Source: Thermoplasmata archaeon (GTDB taxonomy: Archaea; Thermoplasmatota; Thermoplasmata; Lutacidiplasmatales; SKW197). Taken from it: DNA of 64,000 bases. A program made the translations under genes and the position numbers. The stretch's first letter is position 1. Every line of letters starts with the position of its first letter. The stretch is from positions 10,886-74,885 of the forward strand of contig JAOAJK010000001.1 of the NCBI GenBank assembly GCA_026414225.1, written 5' to 3'. The notes below the pieces were generated by a model. It saw only the letters and a program-made list of their open reading frames with translations. It searched no databases and was not told where the DNA came from. Below, in pieces: positions 2 to 32,568 of this stretch.

Positions 2-3000
2 TGGTATGTGCATGCGTATGGAGTGCCTGACACGAGGGACCTGATTCTCGGTGAGTCAGGTGCACCCAATCTGGATGCCCAGCCCTACAAAGTTGAGACC
101 TGGGATGACTTCAGCAGTATCGGGAACATGCTCTACCAGTACTATCTAGTGAAAGAATCGTTGATCAAGAAGCACGCAAGGAGCGGGACCCCCTACTACG
201 ACACACTCTATGACATCCTGGAGGCACTGAACAGAACGATGAAAAAACTTTCCTCCAGCGTCGATGACAGGAACAACAAGGGATTCATGGACTACATGGC
301 GTACGACATTTCGAAGCGGCACAATCTGGAAGCCACCAACCTGCAGGTCGACCCGAGCGACAGAACCACAATCCTGCTCAACCAATCCGACTATCTGATT
401 AACACGGGGGCAATCAAGCAGGGAATAAATGACATGGCATCGTATGCAAGTTCCTTCAGTGTGAGGGACAACTGGTGGAGATACGGTGCCTACCACAGGG
501 AACAGACCAATCCCCAAACTGGCTATCTGTACGCTGTCACCCAGGAAACGGTTGACCTCTGGTACGAAATGGTCGTGAACCTTGTGATGAGCGCTTTGAA
601 GGACTTTGACCCGTATCCCTCAAGGGGCTTCCCCCCAACAGTTCAGAGAAGTGACTGGTACAACCCTGAAGGGGCTTTCAAGTTCAAGAACGACCTGCTT
701 AAAGATGCGTTCATGAGGGTGTGCATCAGCTATGCGGACCCGAGACGGATGGCATGGGTGGATGAGGCATGGGAAGGCGTGACCCCGTGCTGCGACATCC
801 CGAAGATGATAATTCTTGCCCAGGTGAATGCAGAATGGACAGATCAGGCAATCTGGAACAGCATCATGAACGATATCCGCCAGGCAGTTGTGAACACTGT
901 CGGAGAAAACGGACTGCTTACAGATATAACAATAGACATGAAAAAATACCTCGACGAGGTGACAGACACACATGCCTACCAGGAAAATTACTATGTGTTT
1001 ATCAGGGAGAGAATCGGAAAGCTTTTCATCGGACTGCCTGGAGAGGATGAATGCAGGGTGATGGACCTGCTTGACGAGGGCGGCTGGGTAGAGAACATAA
1101 TGCAGACCACGCTGAACCACATCCGGGACAATGCCGACCTGAGCAACATCGTGCTATTCGAGCAGACCAACTACAGGATGGTCTACGATTTCTGGGAAAA
1201 CAATCTGACCACAGCAGCCCAGAACGGGAGCATCCTCCACGAGGAGCTGCGGGTGAAGCAGACCCCGACCGTGCTCTCACCAGGTTCAGGCATAAATGTC
1301 CAGATTACAATTCCAACCAAGGGAGTGCACTATGTGGATGCGCAGGATACGGAACACAACATGGGCGATGCCCCCTTCACCACCCAGTGGGATGTCACCA
1401 TAACTGGCAGCGTCAGGGTTACCGTAAATGCGTTGCGTTACTCGTTGCTGAAGGGCTCGAGCCACATCCAGACAATTTACAACAACACGGTGACAATCGA
1501 CATGAGTTTTCCAGTCGTGGTTTACTCCGGCTGGAATCTCGAGTCGAGATGGCGTGCCTACGACATTGACTATCCGATGACCCGGGGCTATTTTGGAATT
1601 CCACCGAAGGACGATTCATTTGACCCCTGGTTCATCAGCAAGCCGTTTGTGGAACTGGTAGAGGGGATGAAGGATGCGGCTGACTGGGTGATGGACAGGG
1701 ACATGCGGATGAACCTCCTGCTGATGAACTATCTGGATGAGGGCGTGGAACAGGAAGTCCATCTCTCAAAGATAATTTCAGATGTGCTCAAGACGAACTC
1801 AATTCTGCTGAGGGATGCCGCCAATTCCGGCTACCTGTCCCAGCTTGACCAGCGGTTCAATGCGGTCTATTCAGCAGGCAGGGTGAGCACCTACAACATC
1901 AAGTTCTACGGGTTCGATGCCACATTCAGGAGCGGGTCAAAGGTCCTGGACTACAAGAGCAAGTACTTTACAACGAAGATTGACTACGCAAATCTGAAGA
2001 ATGAACTGAAGTACACTACCTCTGACTTTGATTTCAACGACACGAGCGAGCCGAAGTCAGGCACATTTGGGAAATACAGTTTAACGGCCCGCAACACCTA
2101 CTTCGGCAAAAAATTCACGAGCCAGATTGAGGTGCCGAGTGGAAAGCCAACGATTGCGGAGTGGACCACGACCGCAAACGGCATCTATGTGCCCTATCTG
2201 CACCAGACAATCCAGCTGAAGGTCGGTGCGATTGTGATCGGCACTTCCTCGATGCCATCCAGCGTTGCCAGTGCCTTCTCAAACAACATGCAGTATTTCA
2301 AGCCCAACATGGAAGACCTGTGCGTGTTCCTGAAATACTCGCTCGGGGATGTATATTCCAAGTGCGTCAATGACCTGGCAAGCAGGCAGGGCTTCGGAAT
2401 CTTCTTCGAGTACTCCCTCGGAGGTAAAACCTACAGGCAGGAGTATGCAGTCAGTTACTTCCCGGGACAGGGCTGGACAACAGATTACATAAAGACCTAC
2501 CTGGTGAGTACAATCAACCACATACGCCAGATAGTGTATAACCTCGGAAATCCCGAGATTCCCACAGCCCTCTACTCCTCCTATCCAACGAATGTCGGGA
2601 ATGCGATGAAGGTGATTAACCACTGGAAGAACTATGACTATCTAGGTGACGCAAGAACTGAGAGTACGCTCAATGCCCATGCCTCGCTACTCGGTGCTGT
2701 CGGTGCAGGAATAGACAACGGGATTGTAAGGATTGAGTTCGAGGTGATTGGTACAGACAACTGGATTGTAGCAGGGATTACCGAGAATACAAGTTCAGTC
2801 CCCCCACCACCACCGCCACCTCCTCCTCCACCTCCCCCTCCCCCGCCGCCACCTGGTGGTCGCCTAAATGGAATTGATGTTTCCCACTGGCAGGGGGCGA
2901 TAAACTGGGGTTCTGTCCGGGCTGCGGGCTACTATTTTGCATTCGCAAAGGCCACGGAAGGGACTGGCTACACGGATCCGACATTCAGCACCAACATGCG

Positions 3001-3478
3001 GAATGCAAAGGCAGCAGGAATTTACATTGGGGCTTACCACTACGCGCATCCGGATAGGAATTCTGCAATCGCAGAGGCGGACCATTTTGTGAGTGTAATC
3101 CTGCCGTACATCACTGCTGGCTACATGGTACCTGCCCTTGACCTCGAGGAGGGCTATTCCATAGGAAAGACAGCACTTTCCCAGTGGGTCAACACATTCA
3201 TGAACCGCGTGAAGGCGAGGACTGGTGTAACCCCCGTAATTTATACAAGTGCAAATTACGCAAGGAACTACCTTGACTCCTCTGTGACGGTCTGGCCACT
3301 CTGGATCGCCCACTGGACCTACAATCCGAATACCTCTCCGAGCACAGGTGTCTGGAGTACCTGGTACTTCTGGCAGTACAGTGATAGGGGCAGCGTTCCA
3401 GGCATCTCCGGGAATGTTGACCTTGATGTTTTTAACGGGGATCTGGCGGCACTTGAAGCCAGTTTTGTGATCCGCTGA
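2..3478 (+). CDS. Giant secreted protein with C-terminal GH25 lysozyme domain (5' partial)
   Basis: The frame is open at the left edge, so the true start and any signal peptide lie outside; the first possible internal start is GTG at 8 (residues numbered from there). Residues 1 to about 930 form a large region I do not recognise, with helical and beta-rich stretches. A run of 18 prolines (932-949) links it to a complete GH25 domain (about 950-1156). That domain shows the N-terminal motif GIDVSHWQG (D957) and the acidic pair D1045-L-E1047 expected at the active site. GH25 enzymes cut the MurNAc-GlcNAc bond of bacterial peptidoglycan. An archaeon has no murein of its own, so the target is probably bacterial. 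Transfer of a bacterial GH25 gene into the archaeon Aciduliprofundum has been reported. The next gene on the same strand is also predicted to be cell-wall-lytic. The GH25 call is strong; the N-terminal function is unknown. Confidence 0.93.
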   Translation, partial: WYVHAYGVPDTRDLILGESGAPNLDAQPYKVETWDDFSSIGNMLYQYYLVKESLIKKHARSGTPYYDTLYDILEALNRTMKKLSSSVDDRNNKGFMDYMAYDISKRHNLEATNLQVDPSDRTTILLNQSDYLINTGAIKQGINDMASYASSFSVRDNWWRYGAYHREQTNPQTGYLYAVTQETVDLWYEMVVNLVMSALKDFDPYPSRGFPPTVQRSDWYNPEGAFKFKNDLLKDAFMRVCISYADPRRMAWVDEAWEGVTPCCDIPKMIILAQVNAEWTDQAIWNSIMNDIRQAVVNTVGENGLLTDITIDMKKYLDEVTDTHAYQENYYVFIRERIGKLFIGLPGEDECRVMDLLDEGGWVENIMQTTLNHIRDNADLSNIVLFEQTNYRMVYDFWENNLTTAAQNGSILHEELRVKQTPTVLSPGSGINVQITIPTKGVHYVDAQDTEHNMGDAPFTTQWDVTITGSVRVTVNALRYSLLKGSSHIQTIYNNTVTIDMSFPVVVYSGWNLESRWRAYDIDYPMTRGYFGIPPKDDSFDPWFISKPFVELVEGMKDAADWVMDRDMRMNLLLMNYLDEGVEQEVHLSKIISDVLKTNSILLRDAANSGYLSQLDQRFNAVYSAGRVSTYNIKFYGFDATFRSGSKVLDYKSKYFTTKIDYANLKNELKYTTSDFDFNDTSEPKSGTFGKYSLTARNTYFGKKFTSQIEVPSGKPTIAEWTTTANGIYVPYLHQTIQLKVGAIVIGTSSMPSSVASAFSNNMQYFKPNMEDLCVFLKYSLGDVYSKCVNDLASRQGFGIFFEYSLGGKTYRQEYAVSYFPGQGWTTDYIKTYLVSTINHIRQIVYNLGNPEIPTALYSSYPTNVGNAMKVINHWKNYDYLGDARTESTLNAHASLLGAVGAGIDNGIVRIEFEVIGTDNWIVAGITENTSSVPPPPPPPPPPPPPPPPPPGGRLNGIDVSHWQGAINWGSVRAAGYYFAFAKATEGTGYTDPTFSTNMRNAKAAGIYIGAYHYAHPDRNSAIAEADHFVSVILPYITAGYMVPALDLEEGYSIGKTALSQWVNTFMNRVKARTGVTPVIYTSANYARNYLDSSVTVWPLWIAHWTYNPNTSPSTGVWSTWYFWQYSDRGSVPGISGNVDLDVFNGDLAALEASFVIR
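2801..2854 (+). repeat. Poly-proline linker (18 Pro codons)
   Basis: Eighteen consecutive proline codons using all four CCN forms separate the unknown N-terminal region from the GH25 domain. The mixed codons argue against a simple trinucleotide slippage artefact. It is likely an extended rigid linker. Confidence 0.9.
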
Positions 3479-3548
3479 TTCTCTTTTATTTTTTTCAAGA
3501 AAACGGTACACCATGATGCACCCCGATTTACCGAGGTAAGCACCTGAG

Positions 3549-3594
3549 AAGTTTTATATGTGCCTAAACCAATTATGTAAGCAGAAAGGAGGTG
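3549..3594 (+). promoter_or_regulatory. TATA box and strong Shine-Dalgarno for the pseudomurein-lysin-like gene
   Basis: AGTTTTATATG at 3550-3560 is a TATA-like element. It is followed by AAAGGAGGTG at 3585-3594, an excellent Shine-Dalgarno placed 5 nt before the ATG at 3600. This decides the start against an in-frame ATG at 3558. Confidence 0.7.
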
Positions 3595-3599
3595 CAACC

Positions 3600-6389
3600 A
3601 TGAAAAGAATGAACATAAATGGAATAAAAATAAGAAAAATTCGAAAGTTGACTGCAATCGTAGCAATAACAAGCTGTGCCATGCTAATAGGGCTCGTTTT
3701 CCTCCATTCTTTCGGCGGGGGAACGAACGGCAGTGGGTTTGAAGACCGTCAGACCGCAGTCCCAGAAGGGACAGTTAACGAAGAATTGAGGGGAACCAAG
3801 GTTGGATCAAAGGGAGTTTGGGTCTGGGGCACCGATGTGGCCAATGTTGGTGCATCGGCCCTTGCTTCGGAATTCGCCAAACATGGAATCAGTGATGTAT
3901 TTGTGTTGATAAAAGGTACTTCCGGAGATTATAGATTTGACAAATTAGATGCAATGTTTGATAAATGTCATGGATATGGAATCAGAGTGCATGCGTGGGT
4001 GATATGCTTCTGCGATGACTCCTGGGGCGGGTGGGTCAACCCGAGTTCCGACACCTACAGGGCCTACCTCAAAAACAACATCTTTATTCCCCTCGCAAAG
4101 TACCACAGATTTGACGGTGTGGTCCTTGATTGCATAAGGTATCCAGGTACCGCCTACGGAAACACATATCCAATAACTTCCTTCTGCAAAGAGGTTACTG
4201 ATATTATCAAGTCCTATAGATCTAATGCCCTAATGGGCGCCGCAGTAATGCCTGAGATGGCCGCAAATGCCTACTATTATGGCCAGGACTATACCCAGAT
4301 GGCCCAGCATCTGGATGTGCTTATGCCGATGGCATACACCCACAACTATCACACGCAGCCCTCATGGGTCGGGACTGTGACCCAATATGTACGGCAGAAA
4401 GCCCTGCAGGGCAATTCAAACTGCAAGGTATGGACCGCAATTCAATCGCTTGATGATAACGGGCAATTCATGAGCACCACTGAACTCCAGGCGTGCATAA
4501 ACTATGCCATTTCCGGGGGTGCGGCAGGTATTAACTTCTTCAAATACCCGATAACCTCCAAGCAGTATCAGATACTTGATATGTACCCGGTAGATACCAC
4601 ACCTCCTCCACCCGATAATACCAAGGTTGGGTCAAAGGGAGTTTGGGTCTGGGGCACCGATGTGGCCAATGTGGGAGCACCAACCCTCGCTTCCGAGTTT
4701 GCCAAGCATGGAATCAGCGATGTATTTGTGCTGATAAAGGGGGTTTCGGGGGCTTATAGATTTGACCGTCTGGATGCAATGTATGAAAAGTGCCACGCAA
4801 ATGGAATCCGGGTGCATGCATGGGTGGTGTGCTTCCTGGATGAGTCAGCTGGGGGCTGGGTTAATCCGTATTCTGAGACCTACAGGGCCTATCTTAAAAA
4901 TGAGGTGATTACTCCCCTTGCGAAGGACCATAAATTTGATGGGGTTGTGCTGGATTATATCAGGTACTCAGGAACTGCCTATGGGAGCCCCTACCCGATC
5001 ACATCTTTCTGCAGGGAAGTTTCTACTATCGTCAAATCTTACAAGCCCAGCGCACTTGTAGGTGCTACGGTAGAGCCGGGAATGGATACGAATGCATATG
5101 TGTATGGTCAGGATTATGCACAGATGTCCCAGTATCTGGATGTGCTGATACCCCTGACTTACACCCATAAATATTCTCAGCAACCATCATGGGTGGCTAC
5201 GGTAGTCCGGTATGTGTGCCAGAATGCCCACACGGTAAATCCAAACTGCAGGGTATGGGCCGCCGTCCAGTCCCTTGACGATAACGGGAACTACATGAGC
5301 AACACCGAACTCCAGGCATGCATAAGCTATGCCCTCTCTGGAGGTGCCGCAGGCATCAACTTCTTCAGATACCCGATAACCTCGGCGCAGTATCAGATTA
5401 TAGATAGGTATTCCGTAGATAACTCCCCGCCGAGTCCCTCCTCATTGACAAAGCAAGAGGCATTCGAGGCCTGCATTGAACTCGCAAATTACATTGACGA
5501 ACACTATAGGACCCCGAAGTATGTAACCACGACCAAGGGAAACATTCCGATGCCCCAGATGCTCTACATCTCCTCGAAACTTGTGTATGACCTCTCCACG
5601 GGTTCCCCGAATTCGAGCTACCATCTCATCACCTGCGACTACGCACCGAACCCCTTCGGGGAGGCATATTCTGGCTCCCTTGGACGGAACGAGTATGTTG
5701 ACATGGCATACAGGGTGTATGGATTCATTGAGAAGAACGGTGCAGCCCCCAATTACGCAAATACTCCTGTAGGAAAAATAAGAATGTGGGAAATCCTCTA
5801 CATAAATGCAAGGGTTGTGAGATGGTATTACTACAATGGGCTGCTGCCCTCCCTTGCCTATGTGAAACCAGTGCCAGGTTTCAGGGCGGATGCAAACTCC
5901 CAGTACACTGGGGCTACTGCGAACTGTCAAGCAACGAATGGGCAGGTCATCAACTTCGCAATGAGTATCATATGCACTTACTCCAATAAAGCCAACAACG
6001 GAACGCTCAGTGCCAATGACGCTATGTATCTTGCGGGAGAGGCAATCTATTCATGGGTGAGGGACAACAAGGGATATGCGTTCTATTACAACACCAGATA
6101 TGGGGCTTACAGGGCGATTTTTGAGGCGAGTGCGATTAACTGCTGCGACCACGCCAACGCCGAAAATGCGCTCGCGAGAGCTGTCGGAATTCCTGCCCTC
6201 TACCGTCATGCCTACTGCCAGTTCTCGAGTGGTGCCTACGGACATGTCTGGGGGTATTTCTACATCAATGGCAAGGGGTGGATAAACGCAGACCCGGTCA
6301 AGAAGAGCGGAGGATACTTTGGGTATCGCTACCCAATCATAAACGACTGGGGAACATACTATACCCTTCCGTTCGTGATAGAAAATTAA
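3600..6389 (+). CDS. Secreted two-barrel glycosidase-like protein with pseudomurein-binding repeats and endoisopeptidase-like domain
   Basis: 929 residues. An N-terminal signal or anchor segment (about 17-36) follows a basic start. Two near-identical 275-residue units (67-341 and 342-616) resemble TIM-barrel putative glycosyl hydrolases of the DUF4015/GHL10 kind, with the FDGVVLD-x-IRY strand motif in both. Two pseudomurein-binding-repeat-like segments follow (about 616-665 and 698-755), each with a YI/FI-x-P-x-Y core and an M-x-x-x-LYI motif. The C-terminal domain (about 775-929) matches the transglutaminase-like peptidase C71 (PeiW/PeiP) pattern: NCCDHA with C848 or C849, YGHVW with H882, and INADP with D898. 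By family this would bind pseudomurein and cut its epsilon-Ala-Lys cross-links; the barrels could attack the glycan, which is inference. Domain order is unusual and no close known protein comes to mind. It sits 121 nt downstream of the GH25 gene. Confidence 0.85.
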   Translation: MKRMNINGIKIRKIRKLTAIVAITSCAMLIGLVFLHSFGGGTNGSGFEDRQTAVPEGTVNEELRGTKVGSKGVWVWGTDVANVGASALASEFAKHGISDVFVLIKGTSGDYRFDKLDAMFDKCHGYGIRVHAWVICFCDDSWGGWVNPSSDTYRAYLKNNIFIPLAKYHRFDGVVLDCIRYPGTAYGNTYPITSFCKEVTDIIKSYRSNALMGAAVMPEMAANAYYYGQDYTQMAQHLDVLMPMAYTHNYHTQPSWVGTVTQYVRQKALQGNSNCKVWTAIQSLDDNGQFMSTTELQACINYAISGGAAGINFFKYPITSKQYQILDMYPVDTTPPPPDNTKVGSKGVWVWGTDVANVGAPTLASEFAKHGISDVFVLIKGVSGAYRFDRLDAMYEKCHANGIRVHAWVVCFLDESAGGWVNPYSETYRAYLKNEVITPLAKDHKFDGVVLDYIRYSGTAYGSPYPITSFCREVSTIVKSYKPSALVGATVEPGMDTNAYVYGQDYAQMSQYLDVLIPLTYTHKYSQQPSWVATVVRYVCQNAHTVNPNCRVWAAVQSLDDNGNYMSNTELQACISYALSGGAAGINFFRYPITSAQYQIIDRYSVDNSPPSPSSLTKQEAFEACIELANYIDEHYRTPKYVTTTKGNIPMPQMLYISSKLVYDLSTGSPNSSYHLITCDYAPNPFGEAYSGSLGRNEYVDMAYRVYGFIEKNGAAPNYANTPVGKIRMWEILYINARVVRWYYYNGLLPSLAYVKPVPGFRADANSQYTGATANCQATNGQVINFAMSIICTYSNKANNGTLSANDAMYLAGEAIYSWVRDNKGYAFYYNTRYGAYRAIFEASAINCCDHANAENALARAVGIPALYRHAYCQFSSGAYGHVWGYFYINGKGWINADPVKKSGGYFGYRYPIINDWGTYYTLPFVIEN
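3798..5447 (+). repeat. Two tandem 825-bp units encoding the TIM-barrel repeats
   Basis: Units 3798-4622 and 4623-5447 are in register and begin with nearly identical sequence (AAGGTTGG, then GGAGTTTGGGTCTGGGGCAC). They point to an in-frame tandem duplication that is either recent or kept uniform. Confidence 0.9.
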
Positions 6390-6393
6390 AATA

Positions 6394-6402
6394 TTTTTTT
6401 TT
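6394..6402 (+). terminator. T9 terminator between convergent genes
   Basis: An uninterrupted run of nine T residues lies just after the plus-strand stop. Archaeal RNA polymerase terminates at such U-tracts without needing a hairpin. It overlaps the stop of the convergent gene. Confidence 0.55.
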
Positions 6403-9191
6403 CAAACTATTTGTTTTGTGCTTATTTTTTCCATTTCAATTCTTGTCTTCTCGGCCCATACCCTATTGTCAATTCGTTCAAAAAACTGGAGGGCTTGTGC
6501 GAGCAAATCTCTATCACCGGTAAACCTGCCAAGCTCGAACAGGGTTCGGTAATAATAATAATCGCGTCTCCCGATTCCCTCACATATCACAAGAACCTGC
6601 TTCAGAGCTTCAATAGCACTCTTTCCTTCCCCTTTCGCAGCATAAAATTTCCACTCTGCATATCTCGCGGACGCAACAGTTTCCTTTTCCCCGAATATGA
6701 GAGCAACTCCTGAGGCCTCCTCCAGCAACGGAAAAGCTTTTTCCAGGTCCCCCATCTCCGTGTACACTTCTGCAATTCCCAGCATTGCGGTGCATTCGTC
6801 GGTTCGTGCACCGACCTGCTTGGCAAGTTCAAGAGATCTCTTAAAGGATTCAAGGGCCTTCTCGTAATCTCCCATTTCGAGGTAGAGACGGCCCAAAAGA
6901 GTGCAGGATTTACAGATGCCAGTCACATCACCAATCCTTTCCTTTATGGCCAAGCTCTTTTGATAAAATTCCAGGGCCTTTTCATACTCTCCCTTTTGAT
7001 AGTAGGTTTCCCCGAGGCTGTTGTAAGATATTGCAATACCCCAGAGGTCTCCAATCCGTTCTTCCAGTGCAAGGCTCTTGTGATGAAACTCCAGGGCCTT
7101 TTCATAATCCCCTTTCAGCCGGTGGATTGTCCCGATGTTGTCAGAGGTGGACGCAATACCCCAGAGGTCTCCAATTCTTTCCTTGATTGCCAAGCTCTTT
7201 TGATAAAACTCGAGGGCCCTCTCATACTCTCCCCTGTAATCGTAAACTACCCCTATGTTATTGTAGATTTTTGCCATCCCAAACACATCCCCTATCTTCT
7301 CATAACCCGCCAACCCTTTGTGATAGAACTCCAGGGCCTTCTCGTACTCTCCCTTGTGGTCGTAAATTATCCCGATATTGTTGTAAACCCCGGCAACCCC
7401 CCTCAAATCGTTGATTTTTTCCCGGATTTGTAAGGCCCTCTTGAGATATCCGAGGGCTCTTTCGTATTCTCCGAGGTAGGCATAACAGGTTCCAATTCTA
7501 TGGAGGGCGTTTGCAGTATCTTTTTCTCCATCCGATTCCCCAAACACAGTGAGCGCCCTCTCCTGCCATTCTATTGCATTCCTGTATTCTCCCTTCCGTT
7601 CATACACGTAGGCCTTCGCGCTCCAGACCCTTGCGAGCTCGAATTTGTCTTCGGATTTGCCAAGAAGGCACTCCTCCGCCTTTTCCACATGGACCAATGC
7701 ATTCTCATAATCTCCTTTGGTGGTGTATATCTCTGCCATCTTCCTGTGGGTCTTTCCTGCTTCAACTGGCTGCTCAGAAACCGTGTAATTAACCCTCGTA
7801 TTCAGCAATTCCAGCGCATCCTCATATTTTCCTTCTAACTCCAATACCTCGGCAAGTTCCCACAGAATCTCAATTTTTTGCTGTCTCTCCTCAGGACTTT
7901 CGCCCAAAGCTTTCAAGGCGTCTCCCAAGAACTCCGATGCTTCTGCATTTGCGAATTTTTTCGCCGCGCTCCTGCCTGCTTTTATAGCGTACTCTGAAAA
8001 CTTGTTTTTGTTAGCCCCTTCCCTGTAATGACGGGCTAGCGAGGGCCAGAATCTTTCTTCGGTCCCGTGATATTTCTCAATACACTCCCCGGCCTTCAGG
8101 TGCATGAGTCTCTTCCGCACGCCCGTCAACTCCTCGTATATTACCTCCTGTATGGTATTGTTCACAAATTTGCACCCCTCCTCAACCTCCTCTGTTTCGA
8201 CCAAAAAATTTTGGGCTAGGAGCCCCTCGATCGAACTCAATAACTCCTCTTCAGTCAACCCTACAAGTTCCGCCAGCACTTTATATTCGAACACCCTTCC
8301 GAGAACCGCACAGATTGACAAAATTCTCCTTGCCTTCTCATCCAGCTTTGATACAAGGAACCTCACAATCTCTTTCACGCTATTCGGGAGTGCCATCTTT
8401 TTAATTGCCTCTATCTCCACCGCTCCCGCACTTCTCATCGCAGCCAGAAATTCAACTACAAAGAAAGGATTGCCGGAGGTTCTATCATAAATGTAGTTTG
8501 CGGTCTCCTTCGGATGGGCAAACCCAAACTGCTCAACGATCTCCTGTATCTCCTTTTCACCGAAGTTCTCCAGCTTTACCTGGGTGTAAAGCCTCTCAAT
8601 GTTGATATTCCTCAGCGTTTTTGCAAAAAGAGAGTCGGAGGTTGCATACTCCTCAACATAGGTTGCCACGGCAACCATTCTTTCATTCTGTATATTCCTT
8701 ACGAGATAATGGAAAAACGCAAGGGTTCCAGAATCGGCAAGATGCAGGTCATCGATTATAAAGAGTAATGGCTGTTTTTTTGCAATCTCAATAAACTGGC
8801 GGAGCAAATACTCCAGTATTCTTGTCCTCTCCTTTGTTACCCCATTCGGACTTCGCTCCTCAACTTCCAGGTTCTGAAAGCCGGCAAGTCCGAGTGGGAG
8901 GTATCTCTCCTCTTCCTCTCTGACTTTTCTTGCATAACTCTCAAGTGCAGTGAGAACTGGTAGGTAAGCTGGCTCGCTCGTGCCGAGGCACATGGAGGCA
9001 AGGACCACAAAGTGCTCCCTTTCACACATTTCTGCAAACTCCTCCGCGAGCCTTGTTTTTCCTGTGCCGATGTCTCCAGCAATCAAAACGGCGCTTCCCC
9101 TTCCCTCCTTGCAATCTTCCATTGCCTTCCTTAATACCGCAATCTCTTTTTCTCTATCCACCAGCACGGGTGGAAACTTCCCGGCATCCAC
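6402..9191 (-). CDS. AAA/STAND ATPase with about ten TPR repeats
   Basis: 929 residues from a GTG at 9191. I chose it because a TATA box at 9211-9218 lies about 24 nt upstream (leaderless) and because it removes a 128-nt overlap with the upstream gene; the open frame extends to 9362. Walker A GDIGTGKT is at residues 39-46 and Walker B follows as LLFIIDD. An AAA_16-like NTPase module and a winged-helix-like region come next, then about ten tetratricopeptide repeats with the consensus YEKALEFYQKSL. The architecture is that of signal-transducing NTPases in which the TPR array senses a partner and the NTPase acts as a switch; no effector domain is visible. A paralogue lies at 54161-56845 and starts the same way (LV-D/N-REKE). 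It is convergent with the pseudomurein-lysin-like gene. The family call is firm; the signal and partner are unknown. Confidence 0.88.
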   Translation of the reverse strand: MDAGKFPPVLVDREKEIAVLRKAMEDCKEGRGSAVLIAGDIGTGKTRLAEEFAEMCEREHFVVLASMCLGTSEPAYLPVLTALESYARKVREEEERYLPLGLAGFQNLEVEERSPNGVTKERTRILEYLLRQFIEIAKKQPLLFIIDDLHLADSGTLAFFHYLVRNIQNERMVAVATYVEEYATSDSLFAKTLRNINIERLYTQVKLENFGEKEIQEIVEQFGFAHPKETANYIYDRTSGNPFFVVEFLAAMRSAGAVEIEAIKKMALPNSVKEIVRFLVSKLDEKARRILSICAVLGRVFEYKVLAELVGLTEEELLSSIEGLLAQNFLVETEEVEEGCKFVNNTIQEVIYEELTGVRKRLMHLKAGECIEKYHGTEERFWPSLARHYREGANKNKFSEYAIKAGRSAAKKFANAEASEFLGDALKALGESPEERQQKIEILWELAEVLELEGKYEDALELLNTRVNYTVSEQPVEAGKTHRKMAEIYTTKGDYENALVHVEKAEECLLGKSEDKFELARVWSAKAYVYERKGEYRNAIEWQERALTVFGESDGEKDTANALHRIGTCYAYLGEYERALGYLKRALQIREKINDLRGVAGVYNNIGIIYDHKGEYEKALEFYHKGLAGYEKIGDVFGMAKIYNNIGVVYDYRGEYERALEFYQKSLAIKERIGDLWGIASTSDNIGTIHRLKGDYEKALEFHHKSLALEERIGDLWGIAISYNSLGETYYQKGEYEKALEFYQKSLAIKERIGDVTGICKSCTLLGRLYLEMGDYEKALESFKRSLELAKQVGARTDECTAMLGIAEVYTEMGDLEKAFPLLEEASGVALIFGEKETVASARYAEWKFYAAKGEGKSAIEALKQVLVICEGIGRRDYYYYRTLFELGRFTGDRDLLAQALQFFERIDNRVWAEKTRIEMEKISTKQIV
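6961..7440 (-). repeat. Four 120-bp tandem repeats within the TPR region
   Basis: Highly similar segments recur at exactly 120-bp spacing (6961, 7081, 7201, 7321), each encoding a 40-residue TPR unit. The DNA-level similarity suggests recent expansion or gene conversion of the array. Confidence 0.85.
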
Positions 9192-9210
9192 GAAGAGAGA
9201 ATGCTCTCGG

Positions 9211-9218
9211 GATATATA
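9211..9218 (-). promoter_or_regulatory. TATA box for the AAA/TPR gene
   Basis: On the minus strand the sequence reads GTTATATATCCC. Its centre is about 24 nt upstream of the GTG at 9191, the spacing of an archaeal leaderless transcript. Confidence 0.6.
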
Positions 9219-9234
9219 ACGGTTTTTTGGAGTT

Positions 9235-10302
9235 TCATACCATGATAAATCTACACAGTTTCTCAATGTGCTCTCTATCCAGGTGTTCATCTGGTCTCCA
9301 AAATTTTTTACTCCTATGCGCCTCCCTGTGGAGAACGATACATTCCGTGGCCTCTTTGACAAACATTTTCCAGTTTATGCTCCTGCTCGCAGAGATGTAA
9401 TGGTCAAACAGTTTCAGGGCAATCTCTTCCGGGAGAGAGTTGAGTACAATCCAGAAGTCGTATTTTTCCCTGAAGATTCCCTTCGGGATTTGCTCTGGTC
9501 TTTTCAGAGAGATTGCACACCATTCTGCGAATCCCTCATCCAGGTAATCGCATAAAATCTGCTCTGCTACTCTCCTGCACTGGTGGAGATACCCGTGCAC
9601 ATGTTCGTGTAGGATTTCACGCTCGCCCGCCCTCTCATGCACATACACGCCCTGGGCAATTGTTTTACCGTTAGGGAGTAAAAAATCGTCCGGTGTGAAA
9701 AACCCGCTCAAAAACAGAAAATTTGGGGTCGGATTCAAAATTTTCCTGTCACCGAGGGTGCACATTGCACAAGTGAGGTCATCGTCCCAGAGACACCTTT
9801 CCTGCTTGAGGAAGTTCGGGAAAGCGATGAGGTTCGCGTAGTAAGTAACCATCATCGTGTGCTGGATTTCGTTCCAGGCGTTCACGAATTCAACTGCCAT
9901 GTCAAAATCATCCAGGGACGCGATGATTCCCGGAATTTTTGCGGTCAAGCACTCCTCGATTTCACTGATTCCTGAATAAAGCATCGCCCTGAAGCCAGGG
10001 TTGAAGCAGGTAGTGCCTTCCCTGTGTTCGTGATGCTTTATACACTGTTTCCATGCATCCAGGTATGCGGATAGTTCCGCTATTAGCATTCTGACCAGTG
10101 CCTGATTCCGATACACAAATTTGTAGGAGGTCACTTCGGTGAGGAGCGATGCACCTGCATGGACTGTCCGGTAACCCGAATAGTTTCCTGCCTTGAAGAA
10201 ATCGGAGATGGCAACGCTGAATGGATAGTCAACCGGCTTTCTTGGGAGAATTTTCCTGAACGGAATCCACAACTCGCAGTCGTCATGTATCCGATTCATC
10301 AA
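9235..10302 (-). CDS. Putative gluzincin-type zinc metallopeptidase
   Basis: 355 residues with no signal peptide or membrane segment. The motif L-HEHVH (H232, E233, H236) is followed 19 residues later by DEGFAEW (E256). This is the HExxH plus downstream Glu arrangement of gluzincins, in which the second Glu is the third zinc ligand. The rest, with several cysteines such as CAMC near residue 178, is not familiar. It may cleave an intracellular substrate or be an inactive scaffold. The gene lies 43 nt upstream of the AAA/TPR gene on the same strand, but that gene appears to have its own promoter. The motif is clearly visible; peptidase activity is inference. Confidence 0.6.
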   Translation of the reverse strand: MMNRIHDDCELWIPFRKILPRKPVDYPFSVAISDFFKAGNYSGYRTVHAGASLLTEVTSYKFVYRNQALVRMLIAELSAYLDAWKQCIKHHEHREGTTCFNPGFRAMLYSGISEIEECLTAKIPGIIASLDDFDMAVEFVNAWNEIQHTMMVTYYANLIAFPNFLKQERCLWDDDLTCAMCTLGDRKILNPTPNFLFLSGFFTPDDFLLPNGKTIAQGVYVHERAGEREILHEHVHGYLHQCRRVAEQILCDYLDEGFAEWCAISLKRPEQIPKGIFREKYDFWIVLNSLPEEIALKLFDHYISASRSINWKMFVKEATECIVLHREAHRSKKFWRPDEHLDREHIEKLCRFIMV

Positions 10303-29442: not shown

Positions 29443-29544
29443 CTTATGACAATTAACTACTCCCAGTGAGTGTGGTAGTGTGCGGGTATTGTGCAAATCA
29501 AACTTAAATACTCACACATAAATCCGCTGCCTGGTGATGAGTGC

Positions 29545-32500
29545 ATGCAAAAATTTTTTTTCACTGCAGCCCTTGCTGTAGTATTAGCAGCGATACTGCT
29601 CTCTGGACAGTGTAGTGTGTTGCGAACGAATCTGGGTGCAAGTACGGACATCCATCGAATTACCACGGTTGGCGGGACCTGGGACAAATACCACTCCTAC
29701 AATTCGACAAACAGCCTTACCCTTGAACTCTTCAATTTATCTGCCCAACATCCAGACATCATGAAAGTTGTGAGTATCGGGAAAACCTGGAAAGGGAGAG
29801 ATATATGGGCGGTCAAGATATCCAGCAATGTGAATGTGGAGGACCCTACCAAACCCGAGGTGATTTTCGACGGGAATCATCATGCCCGAGAATGGCTTAC
29901 CGTTGAGGTTTGCATGTACATAATCCACAAATTCGTGGATGAATACGGTACCAACTCTACAATAACCAATCTTGTAAATACAAGGCAGATATGGGTTGTG
30001 CCGACTCTCAATCCAGATGGTAGGGTGTACGATGGCGGCGGAAATGACGGAATTGACCCGTCGAATGTCAAAAACTGGCGCAAGAACTTGCGGGATAACA
30101 ACAACAATGGACAGATAGACAGTTATGACGGAGTTGATTTGAACCGGAACTATGAGATTGGCTTCGGTATCGGCTCGAGTTCGAGCATGAGCTCAGAAAC
30201 CTACATGGGCCCGACACCGTTCTCAGAAAAGGAAACCCAGGCATACAGGGACTTTCTCAGCAAACATCATTTTATCACGGGAATAACCTACCACTCCTAT
30301 GCCCAGCTCATTCTCTATCCCTGGGCATACACCTCGACAGATACAAGCCACCACTCCTATTTTACTGCCGCTGCAAATAAAATCAAGAGCTTGATAAAAA
30401 ACACTGCGGGCTCCTCCTACTCCTGGCAGGCGGGACAGCCCCCTGAAATTCTCTATGCTGCTGGGGGTTCCTCATTTGATTATCTCTATGCCTGTTACGA
30501 AACCTTCCAGTTTGGAATTGAACTCTACCCCTCTCAATCCGACTCAATTTCAGATGGTTTTCATCCTCCCACCTCCAAAATCCTGCCAGCATGTAACGAC
30601 CAGATTGAAGCTGCAGTTTACATGGTAGAATCCGCACAGAACCCCTACCATGTGCTCGGTTTGAGTGATGACATAGGGATTCTGAAGATAGAACCATTCA
30701 CAAACATGTCCAGTTATGAAGGTGGGACCCATTCGATACTTGCGTATGTAGTCAATTCCGGGAAAAATGCTCAGAGCGGCTTTGATGTCAGGTTAAACAT
30801 CACAAAACGAAATGGAAGCACCAGTACCCTGGTGTACACCAACACCACAACCCTAGGAAATTCTCTGAGCCAGAACCAGACAGCAATTCTATCATGGAAC
30901 TATAATTTCAATGAACAGGGAACCTACAATATAAAGGTGGAAACCCTCAAATCGGATGGTTATTCTGCAAACAACAAAAAGGAAATTACGGTTAACATTA
31001 CCTCAACTGGGGGGAGCGATACTACACCGCCAGTGATTTCAAACGTTGGAGCGAGTAGCATAACTGCAAACTCCGCAACAGTCAGCTGGACAACCGATGA
31101 AGCAAGCTCGAGCGTTGTGGAGTATGGTACCACTACCGCCTACGGACAGACCGCGACTGGTGCAAGCGGCGTCACCTCTCACTCAGTAACCCTCTCCGGA
31201 TTAACCGCCTCAACAACCTACTACTACAGGGTGAAGTCAACTGATGCTGCGGGTAACACCGCAACAAGCTCTGCCTACTCATTCACAACCCCTGCCGCAA
31301 GTGATACCACGCCACCAGTAATCTCGAATGTGGCTGTTACGGGAATAACTGCAAACTCCGCAACAATCACCTGGACGACTGATGAGGCAAGCACGAGCGT
31401 TGTGGAGTATGGCACCACTACCTCCTACGGACAGACAGCAACTGGCTCTGGCGGCGTCACCTCCCACTCCGTGACCCTCTCCGGATTAACCGCCACAACA
31501 ACCTATCATTACAGAGTAAAATCAACTGATTCTGCGGGTAATCTGGCAACTAGCTCGGACTACACCTTCACTACTGCAGCTAACTCCACGGATGTGATTG
31601 TGTTAACGGACGGTGTTGCGGTAACTGGCTCGCTCGGTGCGGCAAAGGATGCAAAGTATTACTTGCTTGATGTTGGTCTGGGAAAGACCCTGTTGAGGAT
31701 TGAGCTTACGGGACCAAGCGGCACTGACTTTGACCTCTATGCAAAACTAGGGGCGAAACCAACCACTTCGATCTACGATGCCAGAAGCATCGGGTCTACC
31801 TCCGCTGAAACAATCAATGTAACCAACCCTTCCGCAGGCAGCTGGTACTTCATGGTTTACTCCTATTCCGGCTCCGGAACCTTCACAATTAAAGCTACGA
31901 CTACAACTGGAACAACAAACACAACACCGCTGACAGATGGTGTGCCTGCCACCGACTACCTGTCAGGCACAGGTAAAGGGAAAAATTATAGTATAAATGT
32001 GCCGGCCGGTAAAAAGCAACTGAAAATTGAAATGAGTGGCCCGAGCGGGACTGATTTTGACATATATGTTAAATTCGGAACTACTGCATCAAGAACGAAC
32101 TATGACTACAAGAGCACATCCAGTTCGTCAACTGAAAGTGTCGGAATCACAGACCCCTCTAACGGAACATGGTACATCTATGTCTATTCGTACTCTGGCT
32201 CTGGAAATTTCACAATCAAGGCAACACTGTATGACACGGGCACACAGGACCTCTCAGAACTTATCAGCGGGGAGGCAAAAAGTGCCACGATCAGCACATG
32301 CGGTGAAAAACTCTATTTCCACATTGCAGTACCTTCTAGCATCTCCTCCCTCACCATAGAACTGGTGGGCCCAGCCAATGCTGACTTTGACCTCTATGTG
32401 CGGCTCAACTCAAATCCTTCCACCTCTGCCTATGACTATCGCTCTGTGAGTTCTGGCTCCACAGAAACCATTAGCATCAGGAATCCCTCTGCTGGCACAT

Positions 32501-32568
32501 GGTACATAATGATTTACGCCTACTCCGGCACAGGAACCTTTGAAATCAGAGCCACAATCAGTCCGTGA
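29545..32568 (+). CDS. Secreted M14 zinc carboxypeptidase with FN3-like and PPC domains
   Basis: 1007 residues from the ATG at 29545, chosen because GGTGATGAG precedes it and a signal peptide begins there. The M14 domain has the zinc site H113xxE116 (HHAREW), H250 (TYHSY), and catalytic E326 (GIELYPS). A CARDB-like stretch follows, then two nearly identical fibronectin-III/purple-phosphatase-N-like domains (DTTPPVISNV starts), and three C-terminal PPC-like domains with SGTDFDLY cores. There is no clear C-terminal anchor, so it may be fully released. It trims amino acids from peptides outside the cell. A TATA-like ACTTAAATACTC is at 29503-29514. Confidence 0.93.
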   Translation: MQKFFFTAALAVVLAAILLSGQCSVLRTNLGASTDIHRITTVGGTWDKYHSYNSTNSLTLELFNLSAQHPDIMKVVSIGKTWKGRDIWAVKISSNVNVEDPTKPEVIFDGNHHAREWLTVEVCMYIIHKFVDEYGTNSTITNLVNTRQIWVVPTLNPDGRVYDGGGNDGIDPSNVKNWRKNLRDNNNNGQIDSYDGVDLNRNYEIGFGIGSSSSMSSETYMGPTPFSEKETQAYRDFLSKHHFITGITYHSYAQLILYPWAYTSTDTSHHSYFTAAANKIKSLIKNTAGSSYSWQAGQPPEILYAAGGSSFDYLYACYETFQFGIELYPSQSDSISDGFHPPTSKILPACNDQIEAAVYMVESAQNPYHVLGLSDDIGILKIEPFTNMSSYEGGTHSILAYVVNSGKNAQSGFDVRLNITKRNGSTSTLVYTNTTTLGNSLSQNQTAILSWNYNFNEQGTYNIKVETLKSDGYSANNKKEITVNITSTGGSDTTPPVISNVGASSITANSATVSWTTDEASSSVVEYGTTTAYGQTATGASGVTSHSVTLSGLTASTTYYYRVKSTDAAGNTATSSAYSFTTPAASDTTPPVISNVAVTGITANSATITWTTDEASTSVVEYGTTTSYGQTATGSGGVTSHSVTLSGLTATTTYHYRVKSTDSAGNLATSSDYTFTTAANSTDVIVLTDGVAVTGSLGAAKDAKYYLLDVGLGKTLLRIELTGPSGTDFDLYAKLGAKPTTSIYDARSIGSTSAETINVTNPSAGSWYFMVYSYSGSGTFTIKATTTTGTTNTTPLTDGVPATDYLSGTGKGKNYSINVPAGKKQLKIEMSGPSGTDFDIYVKFGTTASRTNYDYKSTSSSSTESVGITDPSNGTWYIYVYSYSGSGNFTIKATLYDTGTQDLSELISGEAKSATISTCGEKLYFHIAVPSSISSLTIELVGPANADFDLYVRLNSNPSTSAYDYRSVSSGSTETISIRNPSAGTWYIMIYAYSGTGTFEIRATISP

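Follow-up and report, generated by a model that had tools for sequence, protein, structure and literature searches.

A pilin-like giant ending in a GH25 muramidase and a putative pseudomurein-directed lysin encoded side by side in a Thermoplasmata archaeon

Two adjacent genes of a Thermoplasmata archaeon appear to provide it with two independent extracellular tools for cutting cell walls, a possibly pilus-mounted GH25 muramidase (P1) that would act against bacteria and a protein resembling the Pei lysins (P2) that would act against pseudomurein methanogens. We hold this reading with middling confidence. The genes open the window, by which we mean the whole 64,000-nucleotide stretch of contig JAOAJK010000001.1 (assembly GCA_026414225.1) that was analysed and that also contains the archaeal genes TopoVI-B, CDC48 and LonB. 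The initial annotation had placed a muramidase and a pseudomurein-lysin-like protein in one archaeon; their coexistence is borne out, and no pseudomurein pathway is detectable in the host.

P1 ends in a GH25 muramidase domain (2858–3475, forward strand), as had been proposed. The profile search matches PF01183 over positions 1–180 of 180 (E 2.4e-51; 175.1 bits against a cut-off of 27), the closest solved structure is the muramidase cellosyl (1jfx, E 3.6e-42), and in the alignment to cellosyl the motifs GIDVSHWQ (at 2870) and LDLEEG, of which LDLEE with its DxE spans 3137–3151, are intact. The domain is 57–65% identical to the GH25 domains of family f5 and 57% identical to that of another genome of the same class (G093), where it is encoded by a 574-aa ORF. 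This ORF fits the 1725-bp Aciduliprofundum boonei gene whose product kills live Bacillaceae (PMC4241558), and it is probably the A. boonei enzyme. As family f5 includes this likely A. boonei enzyme, the antibacterial use of archaeal GH25 proteins is known, and it has already been published (eLife 2014 e04266; PLoS Biol 2025 e3003235). A tree of GH25 domains does not place P1 firmly within the phylum. The P1 domain is known in kind; the new part is its pilin-like mounting.

That mounting had been missed, the initial annotation having recognised the lysozyme and not the 1606-aa pilin-like body. The window holds only the 3' part of the P1 gene (2–3478, forward strand); its 5' end lies outside, the full gene spans L004:9543–14363, and the pilin-like body is interrupted both at the edge of the window and at an assembly gap of 367 N (L004:10519–10885). 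The N-terminus is DUF7286-like, with a match below the cut-off (E 3e-4), and the intact copy in G001, the sole other genome of the genus found, has a single hydrophobic helix, which is N-terminal. A poly-proline linker (approximately 2795–2857, forward strand) joins the scaffold to the GH25 domain, and ahead of P1 lie two small proteins whose N-termini are pilin-like. This small–small–giant set is present twice in G001, once with GH25 and once without it (L073:9936–15110, C5), the two scaffolds being 94% identical; a fragment of one such GH25-less copy is found in the host genome (G000) at L076:1–504. The set recurs in families f5 and f14, the giants of family f2 adjoin pilin-like genes, and giants of the P1 family were detected in 56 of the 390 genomes of the phylum. 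Their modules vary in kind and place. GH25 is C-terminal in P1 and mid-protein in f5; a 2047-aa giant (L102:1061–7201; G100, C81) carries a C39-like peptidase (Peptidase_C39_2, aa 707–856, E 1.5e-15) near the mid-protein site that GH25 takes in f5; the f20 giants carry PKD and Big_5 domains, and a giant of G363 carries LTD.

The minor-pilin tips of the TadEFG/KilLMN type are built on a large pilin with a variable C-terminal module (PMC12075869), and the P1 set resembles them. By this analogy, P1 would represent the large minor-pilin-like protein in a set of three genes, its C-terminal GH25 domain would be exposed extracellularly, probably on the tip or surface of a type-IV-like filament, and there it would cut bacterial peptidoglycan on contact. 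Four T2SSE-type ATPases score above the cut-off in the host genome; the TadE profile gives a weak match, below the cut-off, in two of four members (E 0.08), and no filament genes adjoin P1. A broader proposal would be that Thermoplasmata and their relatives in the Thermoplasmatota possess an analogue of the Myxococcus Kil tips, a filament-tip complex whose giant subunit bears wall-cutting domains that can be exchanged (GH25 or C39-like peptidase), and that this genus has in addition captured a lysin of the methanogen-virus type, the two serving contact attack on bacteria and on pseudomurein methanogens. We regard this fuller picture as unlikely.

The second gene encodes a multidomain protein of which the initial annotation had described the distal half. 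Its ORF spans 3558–6389 on the forward strand, and the ATG at 3558 falls inside a TATA-like box, TTTTATATG (about 3552–3560). A Shine-Dalgarno sequence, AGGAGGTG, lies at 3587–3594, and ATG 3600 is the probable real start, giving a coding region of 3600–6389 behind a leader (3499–3599) that is conserved with the G001 orthologue. The protein begins with a hydrophobic segment, the one in P2, which would act as signal or anchor (3639–3719), and continues with two GHL10/DUF4015-like barrels (3795–4616 and 4620–5438), a region of pseudomurein-binding repeats (PMBR, 5451–5837) and a transglutaminase-fold, C71-like domain (5940–6386), all on the forward strand. Neither the barrels nor the probable start had been noticed before. 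The PMBR and Cys/His/Asp domains had been, and the profile search bears them out: PF09373 matches two motifs (E 2.3e-14; 53.1 bits against a cut-off of 24.9), one in each of two modelled helix-hairpin-helix modules, and Transglut_core (PF01841) matches above its cut-off (E 5.6e-14). The catalytic residues C862 (6141), H896 (6243) and D912 (6291) are conserved in all relatives, including ORF35 of Methanobacterium virus Drs3.

The barrels score above the cut-off for DUF4015 (28.4 bits against 27) and GH18 (40 against 29.6) and below it for GHL10 (PF02638, 16 bits against 27.9). In the AlphaFold model, the best PDB fold match is the GHL10 domain of Cwp19 (E 1.5e-12), a peptidoglycan lytic transglycosylase (PMC6016235), and it is to this fold that barrel 2 is nearest. 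Family f22 supplies close sequence relatives of the barrel (50–56%), which are roughly 400 aa long and have no PMBR, and a plasmid search for relatives of P2 returned just weak barrel matches in Haladaptatus. Barrel 1 retains the conserved LDxIRYPG and MPEM motifs. In barrel 2 (5070–5108), EPGM stands where every other aligned copy has MPEM, and the second barrel, lacking a conserved Glu, is possibly inactive. We suggest that at least the first barrel would cut glycan.

The relationship of the other half of P2 to the Pei lysins was examined at the level of the whole module. Among 50,697 phage records, the best match of the 314-aa PMBR–catalytic half is Drs3 ORF35 (98% coverage, 30% identity, E 2e-35), which shares the two-module PMBR layout and itself matches the pseudomurein endoisopeptidase PHROG over almost its whole length (E 1e-6). 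Searched against the PDB, a profile built from P2, the P2 paralogues and the Drs3 protein retrieves PeiP (E 1.9e-5) and PeiW (E 4.4e-5) ahead of a generic transglutaminase (E 1.4e-4), and hhalign matches PeiP and the MSTV1 Pei to the P2 family colinearly over 229 columns (96.9%, E 1.3e-10), the Cys and His regions of the family aligning to PeiP. The AlphaFold model covers 589 aa, from the second barrel through the PMBR region to the catalytic domain, with a mean pLDDT of 75.5 and lower values in the catalytic part; it gives PeiP as the first non-barrel fold in the PDB (8z4f, E 8e-9) and as the second match among viral models. TM-scores to PeiP are low, which a different orientation of the domains would explain. 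Plain membership of family C71 was considered and rejected: PF12386 does not match P2 even at E ≤ 5, and a P2 paralogue (14.2 bits) and Drs3 ORF35 (20.7 bits) stay under its cut-off of 22. Furthermore, the catalytic domain on its own is closer to a transglutaminase of the bacterial phylum Omnitrophota, its next relative after Drs3, than to PeiP. For these two reasons we describe P2 as probably working like a Pei lysin, as opposed to being a C71 peptidase. The initial annotation had named the lack of a match to a pseudomurein endoisopeptidase profile as a ground for refutation. In the strict sense its C71-like label falls on that ground; the evidence from the whole module still indicates a Pei-type lysin.

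We suggest that P2 is a secreted, signal-anchored lysin whose PMBR region would bind pseudomurein or another GlcNAc-containing wall glycan and whose Cys-His-Asp domain would cut peptide cross-links as the Pei enzymes do. Both proteins could instead act on bacterial walls, GH25 opening murein, the PMBR region binding the exposed GlcNAc-containing fragments, and the barrel and transglutaminase-fold domain cutting murein glycan and peptide. In one study, L. lactis spheroplasts treated with lysozyme were bound by a pair of PMBR motifs that did not bind pseudomurein (PMC3124540), and the fold match to a peptidoglycan enzyme and the Omnitrophota relative point the same way. Taken as a whole, however, the PMBR–catalytic half is nearest to a protein of the same layout from a virus of a pseudomurein methanogen, PeiR with two PMBR is active on pseudomurein (PMC6189367), and P1 and P2 are unlinked in G001. 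We think it improbable that bacterial walls are the target of both proteins, and we prefer pseudomurein as the likely substrate of P2.

PMBR was found in two of the 390 genomes of the phylum, both of this genus, and the full PMBR–catalytic module has the same distribution. Scans of genome collections for relatives of this module, outside Methanobacteriales chromosomes, yielded a single Omnitrophota MAG. Its gene (L039:5039–6351) encodes, in two reading frames, a tandem transglutaminase-fold protein that has no PMBR and is 50% identical to the P2 catalytic domain. Because of the PMBR distribution and the match to Drs3, the sequences suggest that the PMBR–catalytic half was acquired horizontally, with a methanogen or a virus of methanogens as its probable donor; the GC content is ordinary, so any such transfer would not be recent. 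Contamination is unlikely, given that G001 carries the same genes, that the flanks are archaeal and that the GC content is ordinary. Each genome has two PMBR genes, which are unlinked. The paralogue lies in a same-strand run (L005:520–11003; G000, C33) with an MFS transporter, two acyltransferase-like proteins and, by eye, LuxE/LuxC-like proteins, possibly a small-molecule operon.

A pair of unlinked PMBR genes per genome would also suit an enzyme repertoire for nutrition, one that digests the walls of dead bacteria and methanogens in sediment and does not attack live cells. An M14 carboxypeptidase with PPC domains in the window (29491–32568) is in keeping with this and fits an extracellular proteolytic lifestyle. 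Against it, the A. boonei enzyme acts on living cells and a pilin-like mount with swappable modules is better suited to use on contact. A purely nutritional role for the two proteins seems to us rather doubtful.

The host was taken to have no pseudomurein wall, and its genome (93.6% complete) agrees with this. Pseudomurein has been reported only from Methanobacteriales and Methanopyrales (PMC11915815), and the host genome yielded no pseudomurein Mur ligases. The sole protein with a Mur_ligase_M domain is a FolC–endonuclease III fusion (L040:1372–3249; G000, C33), which on sequence reading joins a folylpolyglutamate synthase-like part to an endonuclease III-like domain; synthesis of pseudomurein by the host was rejected on this ground. 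It is therefore unlikely, allowing for the completeness of the genome, that the archaeon turns over a pseudomurein wall of its own. This bears on whether P2 cuts walls at all. PMBR–transglutaminase proteins of Methanobacteriales have been proposed to cross-link pseudomurein (PMC11915815) and similar proteins have been classed as adhesin-like (PMC11532034), and the transglutaminase-fold domain of P2 might likewise cross-link, or P2 might be an adhesin that holds methanogen partners through its PMBR region. But the host has no pseudomurein pathway whose product could be cross-linked, the nearest relative of P2 is a viral PMBR protein that matches a lysin PHROG, and two glycosidase-like barrels are fused to P2. 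We consider a P2 that leaves walls uncut quite unlikely and retain its interpretation as a lysin.

The initial annotation had treated the adjoining genes as one system, a claim that comparison with G001 does not sustain. G001 has both the GH25 gene and P2, but they are apart: the orthologue of the window's 9235–10302 directly follows the GH25 gene, and the P2 orthologue lies on another contig with a convergent AAA_16-TPR gene, whose counterpart here, an ATPase gene by its Pfam domains, occupies 6402–9362 on the reverse strand. Blastn alignments to G001 switch at about 3498 and at about 9230–9323. The unit that moved is a two-gene cassette of about 5.7 kb comprising P2, its leader and the TPR gene, which was either inserted after P1 here or relocated in G001. 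P2 has its own promoter, its TATA-like box and Shine-Dalgarno sequence being kept between both genomes. The synteny rejects a GH25–P2 operon, and since the cassette moves and P2 has a promoter of its own, the side-by-side position is no evidence of a joint system. AAA_16-TPR ATPase genes flank the P1 set on both sides (window 6402–9362 and L004:279–3293), one of them being the gene that moves with P2, and they may have helped recombination.

A two-target weapon is possible. On our preferred reading of two independent tools, bacteria would be lysed or scavenged by means of P1 and pseudomurein methanogens by means of P2. Descriptions of archaeal weapons against bacteria are only now appearing, and the literature searched yielded no archaeon other than methanogens whose enzyme is directed at the wall of another archaeon. 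A lysin for pseudomurein in an organism that is neither a methanogen nor a methanogen virus would, if true, be a natural anti-methanogen enzyme, and a pilin-like giant whose hydrolase modules can be exchanged allows a direct test of a link from archaeal filaments to contact killing.

The pilin-like mount of GH25 and the architecture of P2 are new variants of known systems. A. boonei likewise has a GH25 enzyme in an archaeon without peptidoglycan (eLife 2014 e04266), but that protein has 574 aa, and P1 is a pilin-like giant of 1606 aa with GH25 as its C-terminal module. Archaea, including Thermoplasmatota, with enzymes against bacterial walls are described in PLoS Biol 2025 e3003235; that survey took in only proteins with a known wall-binding domain alongside the catalytic domain, whereas none is recognised in P1, and its available text does not address pseudomurein targets of non-methanogens. 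With the TadEFG/KilLMN systems (PMC12075869), the P1 set shares two small proteins and one giant, all pilin-like, variable modules on the giant and more than one copy per genome; it differs in having no significant Tad profile match, in being archaeal and in carrying the wall hydrolase on the giant itself. Cwp19 and PgaB provide the best fold matches of the P2 barrel at about 15% identity, but the barrel of P2 falls below the GHL10 cut-off and is duplicated, and its second copy is without the conserved Glu. PeiW and PeiP (C71) and Drs3 ORF35 resemble P2 in that a PMBR region precedes a transglutaminase-fold domain of the Cys-His-Asp type, and P2 matches PeiP colinearly at the profile level and Drs3 over the full PMBR–catalytic length. 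In contrast to these lysins, P2 falls outside the C71 profile, resides in the cellular genome of a non-methanogen, is predicted to be anchored or secreted, and is fused to two glycosidase-like barrels.
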